Origin: Candidatus Marithrix sp. | Lineage (GTDB): Bacteria; Pseudomonadota; Gammaproteobacteria; Beggiatoales; Beggiatoaceae | Direction of reading: 5' to 3' | NCBI GenBank assembly: GCA_016744775.1 | Contig: JADGDS010000004.1 | Coordinates: forward strand, 186,001-250,000 | DNA length: 64,000 bases | Shown: positions 7,769-62,956 of the stretch, one piece after another | How positions within the stretch are numbered: the first letter of the stretch is position 1 | How the letters are laid out: each line of letters begins with the position of its first letter | The notes under the pieces: generated by a model | Database searches by the model: none | What the model was told of the DNA's origin: nothing | Seen by the model: only the letters and a program-made list of their open reading frames with translations | Program-made: the position numbers and the translations under genes

Positions 7769-10700
7769 ATGGCAAGAAATATAAAAGTTAAAGTTGCAAA
7801 AACTAAACATGGTACCAGAGTACAATCTCCAATGATTGTACATGAATCTTCAATTTTTTCATTTAAAACAGTTTTTTTAATGATTATATTGTTAGGATTA
7901 ATTGTATTAACTCATTTAGAATTAAAAGAACAATTTGTATTAAATAACATTATTGAACCAATTTTATCAGGAAATAAGTCAGTTCCTGAACCAGAAAAAA
8001 TTGAGGTAGCTTCTTCTACTTCAATGGGTTTTAATCAAAGGTTACAATCTGCAATAGATTCAGTTGAAAAAGTGTCTTTAATAGAACCACCAGTTCAAAC
8101 ATTTAAACCAGTAATAATACCAACTCCAACCGCTCAAACTAATGTAAAACCTATAGTAACAGCATCTGCTTCAAATGTAGTAACTAAGTATCATACTGTG
8201 GTTTCAGGAGATATATTATCTAATATTGCAAAAAAATATAAGGTTAATTACAAGGATATGGCAGCTTGGAATAATATTGCTTATCCTTATGCTTTGAAAT
8301 TAGGAGAAAAATTATCAGTTGTTGAACCTCCTAAAACTAAACCAGTTGCTGCTAAAGCTAAACCAACTTATCATATAGTCAAAAGCGGCGATTTTTTAGC
8401 TAAAATTGCAAAACAATATAAAGTCAATTACAAGGATTTAGCGCGTTGGAATAATATTCCTTATCCTTATGCTTTGAAGCTCGAACAAAAATTATTACTT
8501 TCTGAACCACCTAAATCTGAAGAACCAGAACCGGCTCCAGCCGTTGATAAATATCATATAGTAAAAAGCGGTGATTTTTTAGCTAAAATTGCAAAACAAT
8601 ATAAAGTTAATTACAAGGATTTAGCACGTTGGAATAATATTCCTTATCCTTATGCTTTGAAATTAGAACAAAAATTATTGCTTTCTGAACCAGCTAAATC
8701 TGAAGAACCAGAACCGGCTCCAGCCGTTGATAAATATCATATAGTAAAAAGCGGTGATTTTTTAGCTAAAATTGCAAAACAATATAAGCTTAACTATAAT
8801 GATTTAGCGCGTTGGAATAATATTCCTTATCCTTATGCTTTGAAATTAGAACAAAAATTATTGCTTTCTGAACCAGCTAAAACTGAAGAACCAAAACCAA
8901 CTGTGGTTGTAAGTGATAATGATAAAGATGGTATTCCTGATGATAAGGATTTTTGTCCTAATACTACCAGTGAAAATATTATTAAAGGAGTTGATAATAT
9001 GGGTTGTGTTATTCAGCTACCAGCTAAAACTGAAGAACCAGAACCAACTATGGTTGTAAGTGATAATGATAAAGATGGTATTCCTGATGATAAGGATTTT
9101 TGTCCCAATACAACAACTGATGAAATCATTAAAGGAATTGATGATATGGGTTGTGTTATTCAAGTGGAGGAAAAACAAGAAGTAGAAGCAAAGTCATTAG
9201 TTTCTGAAGCTGCCAAAACTGAAACACCAGCAGAAGAAAAAATTCCAGCCGTTGAGAAATATCATATAGTAAAAAGCGGTGATTTTTTAGCTAAAATTGC
9301 AAAACAATATAAAGTCAATTATAAAGACTTAGCGCGTTGGAATAATATACCTTATCCCTACGCTTTGAAACTAGAACAAAAATTATTAGTTTCTGAACCT
9401 CCCAAAAGCGAAGAACCAGAACCAGCTCCAGCTATTGATAAGCATCATATAGTAAAAAGTGGTGATTTTTTAGCTAAAATTGCAAAACAATATAAGGTCA
9501 ATTATAAAGACTTAGCGCGTTGGAATAATATTCCTTATCCTTATGCTTTGAAACTTGGACAAAAATTATTAGTTTCTGAACCTCCAAAAATTGAAGAACC
9601 AGAACCAGAACCAACTCAAATCATTGATAATGATAAAGATGGTGTTCCTGATGATAAAGATTCTTGCCTCAATACCACTACTGATGAAATTATTAAAGGA
9701 GTTGATAATATGGGTTGTGTTATTAAACAAGAACAAACATCAGAACAAACAGCTTATCATATAGTAAAAAGCGGCGATTTTTTAGCTAAAATAGCTAAAC
9801 GTTATGGAATTTCTTATAAAAAGATAGCTCGTTGGAATAATTTACCGCGCCCTTATGCTTTGAAATTAGGACAAAAATTAGTACTTTCTGAACCTATGGA
9901 TAAAGATCAAGATGATGTTCCTGATGATAAAGATCATTGCCCTAACACCACTATTGAAGAAATAGGTAAAGGTGTTGACGCAATGGGTTGCCCTTCTGCT
10001 GCTATTATTCCAAGTAATGAACCATTGTATCATCTTGTAAAAAGAGGTGAAAGTTTATTTAAAATTTCTAGACTTTATAAAATTTCCTATAAAGATCTTG
10101 CTAGTTGGAATAAAATTTCCATATCCTATCCCCTTAAACTTGGTCAAAAATTATTAGTTTCCAAACCTGTAGATTCATTTTTAAGTGTTGATACAGATGA
10201 AGATGGGATTAATGATGATAAAGATCGTTGCCCTAATAATACTGAAGAAGAAGTTATTACAGGAATTGATGAACAAGGTTGTGCTATTAAAATAGATGAT
10301 GATTTTGATTTTTCATTTCCATCTGAAAATAAAAAAAAACTTTCTAAACCAGTAGCAGAAGCCCCGGTATTTAATAGAAAAAAAAACTTATTTTTTCATG
10401 ATCGTTTAAGAGATGGTAGTTTAGGACCAGAAATGGCATGGATACCTGCTGGTTCATTTAAAATGGGTGATTTACAAGGAAGCGGTGATATAGATGAACA
10501 ACCTGTACATGAAGTATCTATTAAACGCTTTGCCAGTTCTCGTTATGAAATAACATTTTCAGATTATGATAAATTTGCAACAGCCACCAGACGAAAAAAA
10601 CCAAATGATGAAAATTGGGGCAGAGGGATTAGACCAGTGATAAATGTTAATTGGGAAGATGCCAGAGCTTATACCAACTGGTTAAGTCGTCAAACTGGAC

Positions 10701-25245: not shown

Positions 25246-25482
25246 TTATTTTTGATGTGCTTGTATGTACTCAACTGCTTCTTTTACAGTGGTAATTTTT
25301 TCTGCGTCTTCATCTGGAATTTCACATCCAAATTCTTCTTCTAGTGCCATTACTAATTCAACTGTATCAAGAGAATCTGCACCTAAATCATCAACAAAAG
25401 AGGAATCAGTTTTAACTTGATCTTCTTGAACACCTAATTGTTCTACAACTATGCCTTTTACTTTTTCTTCAATACTACTCAT
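25246..25482 (-). CDS. acpP: Acyl carrier protein
   Basis: 78-aa acidic carrier of fatty-acyl intermediates. The phosphopantetheine serine lies in the canonical [17 protein letters not shown] strong ribosome site, AAAGGAGAAA, precedes the ATG. The 15 nt covering it (25488-25502) are exactly the reverse complement of the CU-rich motif of candidate sRNA unit 2. Confidence 0.97.
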
Positions 25483-25503
25483 TTTATATTTCTCCTTTAT
25501 GTG

Positions 25504-33527: not shown

Positions 33528-33543
33528 TGGTATATTATATGCT
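33528..33543 (+). promoter_or_regulatory. Sigma-54-like -24/-12 element, unit 1
   Basis: TGGTATATTATATGCT: GG at 33529-33530 and GC at 33541-33542 with exactly 10 nt between, the invariant sigma-54 spacing. The match to TGGCAC-N5-TTGC is partial. Confidence 0.5.
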
Positions 33544-33552
33544 TAATATTGT

Positions 33553-33604
33553 GTGCATTCCTCCTTTATGTTTTAACCTTTCTTAGCCGAAAGGTTTTTT
33601 TTTT
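33553..33604 (+). ncRNA. Candidate sRNA, tandem unit 1
   Basis: Motif ATTCCTCCTTTATGT (33557-33571) followed by the stem AACCTTTC/GAAAGGTT (33575-33582/33589-33596) and ten T. CCTCC is the anti-Shine-Dalgarno core. The 5' end is estimated 11-12 nt after the -12 GC. The predicted length is about 50 nt and there is no reading frame. Confidence 0.7.
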
Positions 33605-33617
33605 ATTTTATAAATTA

Positions 33618-33633
33618 TGGTAATAATATTGCA
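33618..33633 (+). promoter_or_regulatory. Sigma-54-like -24/-12 element, unit 2
   Basis: TGGTAATAATATTGCA: GG at 33619-33620 and GC at 33631-33632, 10 nt apart, with a perfect TTGCA half. The best match of the four. Confidence 0.6.
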
Positions 33634-33642
33634 TATATTTAA

Positions 33643-33705
33643 CATGTACATTTCTCCTTTATGTACTCACTTAGCCCCTTAATTATTCTAGTTAAGGGGT
33701 TTTTT
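33643..33705 (+). ncRNA. Candidate sRNA, tandem unit 2
   Basis: Motif ATTTCTCCTTTATGT (33650-33664), then the stem CCCCTTAA/TTAAGGGG (33675-33682/33692-33699) and six T. The motif is the exact reverse complement of the acpP ribosome-site region (15 of 15 nt). Confidence 0.7.
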
Positions 33706-33738
33706 ATTGTCTATTATTTGTGTTTAGGTGATAATTAT

Positions 33739-33754
33739 TGGAATGAATATTGTA
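33739..33754 (+). promoter_or_regulatory. Sigma-54-like -24/-12 element, unit 3
   Basis: TGGAATGAATATTGTA: GG at 33740-33741, TTGT in place of TTGC, same 10-nt spacing. Confidence 0.45.
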
Positions 33755-33763
33755 TATTTTAAT

Positions 33764-33823
33764 GACTGCATTCCTCCTTTATGTAATTTAGCCGTTCTCT
33801 CATAGATTGAACGGTTTTTTTTT
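33764..33823 (+). ncRNA. Candidate sRNA, tandem unit 3
   Basis: Motif ATTCCTCCTTTATGT (33770-33784), identical to unit 1, then the stem CCGTTC/GAACGG (33792-33797/33809-33814) and nine T. Confidence 0.7.
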
Positions 33824-33838
33824 GCTAACATAAAAAAG

Positions 33839-33854
33839 TGGAATATATTTTGAA
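33839..33854 (+). promoter_or_regulatory. Sigma-54-like -24/-12 element, unit 4
   Basis: TGGAATATATTTTGAA: GG at 33840-33841, TTGA in place of TTGC, same 10-nt spacing. The weakest match. Confidence 0.4.
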
Positions 33855-33863
33855 TATATTTTA

Positions 33864-33923
33864 TTATTGACTTCTCCTTTTTGTGTGGTTTTGCCTTTCA
33901 CTTTCGTGAAAGGCTTTTTTTTT
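33864..33923 (+). ncRNA. Candidate sRNA, tandem unit 4
   Basis: Motif ACTTCTCCTTTTTGT (33870-33884), then the 9-bp stem GCCTTTCAC/GTGAAAGGC with loop TTTC (33893-33914) and nine T. CTTCTCCTTTTT is the reverse complement of the ribosome site of the upstream hemerythrin gene (12 nt). Its terminator also lies just past the end of the convergent M48 gene. Confidence 0.68.
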
Positions 33924-61438: not shown

Positions 61439-62956
61439 ATGTCAACAAATGTTCGTACAGCTTTAATTGAAGCAGAATTAGAAGCTTTATTTAGAGTTGG
61501 TCAAGTATTAAGCCGCTCTTTTAATTTAGAAGAAACTCTACAAAATGTCTTACATGTATTACATGATTATACAGGTATGCACTATGGTATGGTTGCTTTA
61601 AGTGATGATTATGGAGCTTTATCCATTTGTGCTGTATATTCCGGTAATAAACATGCACCTAATACACTACAATACAAACCCGGAGAAGGTGTAATTGGTT
61701 TAATACTAGAATCTAGTAAACCATTTATTCTGGAACGTCTTGCTGATGAACCTCGTTTTTTAGGGCGTTTAGGGCTTTATGATCCTAATTTACCTTTTAT
61801 TGGTATGCCTATAATTATAGGAGAAGAAAAACCTTTAGGAGTTTTTACTGCCCAACCAAATATTAACAACGATGGCTTATTAGATGAACGTGTACGTTTC
61901 ATGAAAATGGTCACTCAACTAGTTGCACAAATGGTACGTTTAGCTAATCAAATTGAACGTGAGCGGCGCGATTTAACTGATGAACGTGATCATTTACGTC
62001 GTGTAGTCAGCAATAACTACGGTTTAAAAAACATTATTGGTCATTCTACAGCTATGAAACGTGTGTTTGAATTAGTACGACAAGTAGCTAAATGGGATAC
62101 CACAGCTTTAATTCGTGGCGAATCTGGAACCGGTAAAGAATTGATTGCTCATGCAATTCATTATAATTCACCACGTAATAATAATGAATTTATAAAACTT
62201 AATTGTGCCTCATTACCTGAAAATTTACTAGAATCAGAATTATTTGGACATGAAAAAGGAGCCTTTACCGGAGCGACTCAACAATATAAAGGGCGATTTG
62301 AACGAGCTAATGGAGGCACATTATTTTTAGATGAAATTGGTGATATATCTCCAAAGTTTCAAGCCAAATTATTACGAGTATTACAAGAAGGTGAACTAGA
62401 AAGAGTTGGCGGTAATCGTACTATAAAAGTAGATGTACGTTTTATTACAGCTACTCATGTAGATTTAGAAGCAGAAGTTAAAGCTGGTAAATTTCGCGAA
62501 GACTTATATTATCGTTTGAATGTAATACCAATTACATTACCCGCTTTAAGAGAACGCATTGAAGACATTCCAGAATTATCAACATTTTTATTAAAAAAAT
62601 TAGCAAAAAAACAAAATCGTAAATTAAAGATAACTGAAAATGCAATTCGTATTTTAATGCGTCATAATTGGTCTGGCAATGTACGTGAATTAGAAAACTG
62701 TTTAGAACGAGCTGCAATTATGTCAGAAGACAATTGCATTGATAGCGAAATCATGAATGTTATTGGATTCAAAGAATCATTCAAGGATGATAATTTTCAG
62801 GAGAATTTTGATACATTAGATGAACCAGAACGTGTGATTGCAGCTTTGAAACAAGCAGGATGGGTACAAGCTAAAGCCGCAAGACTATTAAATATGACAC
62901 CGCGTCAAATTGCTTATCGTATTAAAATATATAAAATAAAATTACAAAATTTCTAA
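61439..62956 (+). CDS. nifA: NifA-type sigma-54-dependent transcriptional activator
   Basis: 505 aa. N-terminal GAF domain (about residues 20-165: [22 protein letters not shown]), central AAA+ domain with Walker A GESGTGKE (about 223), [13 protein letters not shown] (the GAFTGA loop contacting sigma-54), Walker [12 protein letters not shown] and [11 protein letters not shown], and a C-terminal Fis-type HTH ([20 protein letters not shown]). That last motif and the GAF layout match NifA, which switches on nitrogenase genes under N limitation. No nif structural genes are in view. It begins 1 nt after the preceding stop. Confidence 0.85.

Follow-up and report, generated by a model that had tools for sequence, protein, structure and literature searches.

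The window, a 64,000-nt stretch of a Candidatus Marithrix genome, contains an array of four units that looks, judging by its sequence, like a set of short RNAs that is new and specific to its lineage. The best explanation of the array, and one that we consider quite probable from its sequence and from analogy with described RNAs, is a set of four paralogous, RpoN-driven small RNAs that would cover the ribosome sites of mRNAs. Each RNA (~50-65 nt) would be transcribed separately, by RpoN (sigma-54) RNA polymerase acting with an enhancer-binding protein on the unit's own -24/-12 promoter, as sequence and conservation suggest, and would end at an intrinsic terminator. A CU-rich anti-Shine-Dalgarno (anti-SD) stretch near the 5' end, predicted in units 1-3 to sit in the loop of a small hairpin, would by analogy base-pair with mRNAs at their SD regions and keep ribosomes from loading, and the bases flanking it would give a preference for some mRNAs. 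We infer RpoN dependence, expression, blocking of ribosome-binding sites (RBSs) and Hfq independence of the units. That the array consists of small RNAs with anti-SD motifs had been proposed in a sequence-only reading of this DNA, and promoter elements, folds, relatives and conservation all support the proposal.

The four units lie on the + strand, and in each (~50-65 nt) a sigma-54-like -24/-12 element is followed by an anti-SD stretch and then by a terminator. The pattern TGG-N8-(T/A)TG occurs in 4/4 units, 33-36 nt before CTCC. In unit 1, the element at 33528-33543 (TGGTATATTATATGCT; 15/16 identical in the sister species) is followed by an RNA at 33554-33604, with the anti-SD loop UCCUCCUUU and a terminator at 33575-33604; here and in the other units, the RNA start is putative. 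Unit 2 has its element at 33618-33633 (TGGTAATAATATTGCA) and its RNA at 33644-33706, which is predicted to form the hairpin GUACAU-UUCUCCUUU-AUGUAC and then a terminator. The element of unit 3 is at 33739-33754 (TGGAATGAATATTGTA) and its RNA, an anti-SD hairpin plus terminator, at 33765-33823. Unit 4 (element at 33839-33854, TGGAATATATTTTGAA; RNA at 33866-33923, CUCCUUUUUGU) also ends in a terminator. Units 1 and 3 share the hairpin plan of unit 2, with the stem GCAU/AUGU; unit 4 has a weak first hairpin, and many relatives have a weak one or none. For the terminator stem, 98.1% of cells pair, and four of the seven pairs are changed on both sides.

Upstream of the array is a gene for a hemerythrin-domain protein (PF01814; 32970-33449, + strand), and a gene for an M48 peptidase lipoprotein (PF01435; 33929-34729, - strand) is convergent with it. 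This setting bears on whether the repeated motif might be an attenuator or a protein-binding repeat, with no sRNA genes at all. Intergenic repeats with terminators would suit such an element, but each of the units comes with a separate conserved promoter element and terminator, and no same-strand gene directly follows the array because the M48 gene is convergent; we regard this explanation as extremely unlikely.

As for the proposed sigma-54 promoters, the features of a sigma-54-dependent sRNA gene were found: the -24/-12 element in 4/4 units, and rpoN and enhancer-binding proteins in the window genome, which has seven strong sigma-54-activator domains. One of the seven is in the window itself, in a GAF and sigma-54-activator protein at 61439-62956 that appears NifA-like by eye and is a possible activator candidate. 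In the ≤250 nt upstream of 12 arrays, we found no match to general patterns for NtrC-, LuxO- or GlrR-type sites. A sigma-70 consensus scan of the region gave 20 sites against 11.2 expected, with a placement relative to the units that is inconsistent by eye. There was no match to Hfq (PF17209) in the window genome (98.36% complete), with a profile that detected Hfq in 5/14 control genomes; since no Hfq gene was found, the usual RNA-pairing helper may be missing.

The array is also present in a sister species of the same genus, Ca. Marithrix sp. Canyon 246 (NZ_MCBX01000003.1), whose genome is ~92% identical to the window genome. Identity between the two is high in the -24/-12 elements (62/64, 97%), from +1 through the seed (78/82, 95%) and in the linker plus terminator (147/155, 95%), and falls to 27/40 (68%) in the -11 to -1 stretch and 52/134 (39%) in the spacers. 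Elements and RNAs are thus kept and spacers have diverged, as they should if sigma-54 promoters precede RNA genes, and on this sequence comparison the array looks genuine. Two side observations came from comparing the genomes. The sister's hemerythrin gene by the array (G001:C34, ~176,300-178,400; L008/L172) is interrupted by a reverse-transcriptase-like ORF, in what looks like a group II intron insertion, and window positions 8200-10290 contain internal repeats, perhaps of a repetitive protein gene, that align to the sister genome in many ways.

Relatives were sought with two models, R1 (RNA only) and R2 (promoter plus RNA). R1 matched 19/57 genomes at E ≤ 0.1, all of them in the family. By hand count, 14 of the 18 R1 matches outside the genus for which sequence was fetched (E ≤ 0.05; one additional match, its sequence not fetched, was left out) have an upstream sigma-54 score of at least 10, compared with 13/329 control CTCCTY sites; the four that lack it are one unit in G003, one in G027 and two in G005. 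R2 found units in 21/42 family genomes and, among 369 genomes of the class, only in the window genome and in two further members of the family, with no non-family genome matched under strict filters by which weak relatives could be lost. The invariant GG/TG columns of alignment A3 arise partly by construction, since its 22 units were chosen with a sigma-54 score filter.

The R2 search also revealed a fifth unit elsewhere (G000:C7:134907-134990, - strand; CTCCTTAATGT), which is solitary and of sigma-54 type, and one unit in the sister genome (G001) that we take to be its orthologue. By eye, the fifth unit sits between a TPR-like ORF and a TerB-like ORF, and a similar TerB-like ORF adjoins a unit in G310 (L225). 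An M48 peptidase gene adjoins units, as in the window, in seven genomes (G015, G018, G019, G026, G032, G035 and G310), so that this neighbour recurs in several other genera; the G019 unit is without a clear -24/-12 element at its reported start. A survey of 80 M48 loci from named genomes gave units at E < 1e-5 in Marithrix, two Parabeggiatoa and two Thiotrichaceae, and the sole further match (E 0.32) is taken as chance.

No Rfam family matched the array at its gathering cut-off. The closest resemblance is to RF02278, the Betaproteobacteria toxic small RNA, whose members are described in the available text of the sources as ncS03, ncS05, ncS27 and ncS62 of Burkholderia cenocepacia (PMC5688073, PMC4603805) and S17 of Bordetella pertussis (PMC11722255). 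The B. cenocepacia members are presented there as RNAs with two hairpins, whose CU-rich unpaired regions are predicted to cover RBSs, and growth slows when one of them is overexpressed (PMC5688073, PMC4603805). As far as these sources describe the family, the likeness extends to the length of ~60 nt, the two hairpins, the CU-rich anti-SD loop, the terminator and the several copies per genome. The two-hairpin plan (~60 nt, anti-SD loop, terminator) is seen in units 1-3, and in unit 4 with a weak first hairpin; the UCCUCCUUU loop of unit 1 also occurs in gammaproteobacterial RF02278-like matches.

The units could on these grounds be ordinary RF02278 toxic or double-hairpin sRNAs, and units 3 and 4 do align with the full length of the model, at 22.5 and 20.0 bits (none are listed for units 1 and 2). 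These scores are far below the cut-off of 50, however, and the 5' single-stranded CUCCUCC that precedes hairpin 1 in the model is absent, its positions being deleted or substituted in the alignment; few nucleotides precede the anti-SD loop from the putative starts. RF02278-like sequences are widespread below the cut-off (82/274 genomes of the class at E ≤ 0.001, 2 above the cut-off); none of the 24 scorable relatives among 30 fetched loci has a sigma-54 score of at least 10 (best 9.1). Another genome of the class (G296:C3:217943-218301) has three RF02278-like double hairpins in tandem, spaced by ~150 nt and below the family cut-off, and RNAs of this type may extend well beyond Betaproteobacteria. 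The array thus differs from RF02278 in its sub-threshold scores, its lack of the 5' CUCCUCC, its sigma-54-like promoters and its tandem arrangement, with R2-type units in one family only, and ordinary membership is very unlikely. Judged by structure, the Marithrix units probably work like RF02278 RNAs, while scoring below its membership cut-off and differing in promoter.

Three other systems share some of these properties. The alpha-r14/NfeR1 and cuckoo RNAs also repeat an anti-SD motif in the unpaired portions of their hairpins and act on RBSs, and NfeR1 is reported to be Hfq-independent; these RNAs differ in having three hairpins in one RNA, an CCUCCUCCC motif and an alphaproteobacterial distribution, and the available text mentions no sigma-54 drive for them (PMC10746234). 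The Vibrio Qrr sRNAs are likewise several paralogous sRNAs under sigma-54 (PMC10162802, PMC3352281). At the array, by contrast, there is no Rfam match, and a LuxO-type site was not found upstream. Qrr sRNAs are also longer than the array units, and of another structure. In the accessible descriptions of enterobacterial GlmY/GlmZ, there is a sigma-54 link (glmY) and glmS is a target, but GlmZ activates glmS, whereas the array pairing would cover the glmS SD (PMC7073468, PMC6075780). We claim no sequence similarity between the array and GlmY/GlmZ.

Which mRNAs the units might pair with was approached from the gene for acyl carrier protein, acpP (25246-25482, - strand; PF00550, E 2.1e-17). The sequence-only reading had noted a 15-nt identity between its SD region and unit 2, and the identity is exact: ATTTCTCCTTTATGT occurs at 25488-25502 (+ strand), as the complement of the acpP SD region (ACATAAAGGAGAAAT on the coding strand), and at 33650-33664 (+ strand) in unit 2. 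The acpP site, 5 nt before the start codon at 25482, matches over exactly 15 nt, with a mismatch at both flanks. An exact genome-wide pattern search found ATTTCTCCTTTATGT at these two places only. With one mismatch allowed, the argF RBS, units 1 and 3 and the RBS of a ccoO-like gene (named from its N-terminus) also match, as do two further sites with no start codon downstream.

The same reading had held that half of the match is forced by the SD core and that the outer ACAT and AAAT are not, which is incomplete, as these bases sit in unit 2's own stem arms. In the predicted fold GUACAU-UUCUCCUUU-AUGUAC, the loop is formed by the anti-SD core and the arms contain ACAU and AUGU, so that the 15-nt stretch covers the loop and parts of both arms. 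Because the anti-SD loop is held by the unit 2 stem, a match beyond the SD core runs into self-pairing bases.

On this basis, the acpP match may be a product of chance, in which an SD core with AT-rich flanks meets the self-complementary stem of unit 2 and the real targets are elsewhere; we consider this fairly likely. In a shuffle null of the columns flanking the SD, over 721 sampled genes, the mean number of RBSs with at least 15 nt of complementarity to any of the four units is 0.04 (observed, 1), which scales to ~0.15 such matches per genome of ~2,500-2,900 genes (both figures are our own estimates). This expectation, the constraint of the stem and the lack of conservation described below all favour chance. 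Against it, four of the 721 RBSs have at least 13 nt, where the same type of null has a mean of 0.37 and reached the observed number in 0/300 shuffles. Two of these four are in the window that had already been searched in the sequence-only reading, none are among 265 fresh genes, and one, a 14-nt match to unit 3 (L133), does not span the SD core GGAG. The test used a simple ORF caller that chose starts by SD strength, on 864 kb of sampled sequence with the window included; argF, outside the sampled stretches, was added by hand. Long RBS matches as a class may therefore be enriched or selected, but the acpP match itself, mildly unusual and picked by eye, is weak and not decisive evidence of targeting.

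The converse possibility is that acpP is a dedicated target of unit 2, and that, in this species, repression of AcpP ties lipid synthesis to the RpoN signal. In its favour, acpP has the only perfect copy of ATTTCTCCTTTATGT outside the array, pairs with unit 2 at -20.2 kcal/mol (rank 3 of 350 sampled genes; rank 5 for the best of the four units) and pairs over 11 nt with units 1 and 3 as well. Unit 2 is identical from +1 to the seed end in the sister (23/23), yet the sister's acpP leader, gtcataaggagaaaatataaaATG, is without the ACATAAA block and the match is gone; it is also absent in 20/20 other family genomes examined, and acpP was rejected as a conserved target. Moreover, argF is complementary to unit 2 over an equal 15 nt, offset by one base (TACATAAAGGAGAAA), with the better energy of -23.1 kcal/mol. 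A dedicated acpP target is thus improbable, and the suggestion that fatty-acid synthesis is a particular target of the array was not borne out, with acpP surpassed in energy by both argF and glmS and placed third, at a length that argF equals, when ranked against the ribosome sites of sampled genes for unit 2. The 15-nt match is species-specific and is probably not what maintains unit 2. Regulation of acpP in this one species may nevertheless occur, since acpP can physically pair with units 1-4.

Of the other candidate partners, glmS is the best supported within the genus, if modestly. Its RBS shares 14 nt of complementarity with unit 1, and its energy with unit 2, -23.4 kcal/mol, is better than that of acpP. 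The 14-nt match, AAAACATAAAGGAGTTAATATG, is identical in both Marithrix genomes and the bases just upstream differ; one conserved 14-mer is modest evidence because the genomes are ~92% identical. Within the family, only the two Marithrix genomes show the complementarity, which is not kept outside the genus, and glmS was accordingly rejected as a family-wide target. The exact 11-nt core of argF is absent from the exact matches in the sister species. The RBS of the hemerythrin gene upstream of the array pairs over 13 nt with unit 4, a pairing rejected as conserved because this RBS differs in the sister, and unit 5 matches the ccoO-like oxidase gene over 11 nt. We would place acpP after glmS and argF, as one of many possible partners.

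It is conceivable, if rather doubtful, that each paralogue has its own flagship mRNA (glmS for unit 1, acpP and argF for unit 2, hemerythrin for unit 4 and ccoO-like for unit 5), in an Hfq-free, sigma-54-driven battery. In that case, a single RpoN signal would bring down several proteins of biosynthesis and respiration at once in large sulfur bacteria. More generally, where an anti-SD loop is set on a self-complementary stem, long RBS complementarity is weak evidence of targeting. In the open-licence literature, we found no sRNAs described in large sulfur bacteria, including Marithrix. If the four paralogous RNAs work as proposed, they would add to the anti-SD double-hairpin sRNAs a lineage-specific group under sigma-54 control, from large sulfur bacteria that are difficult to grow in culture.
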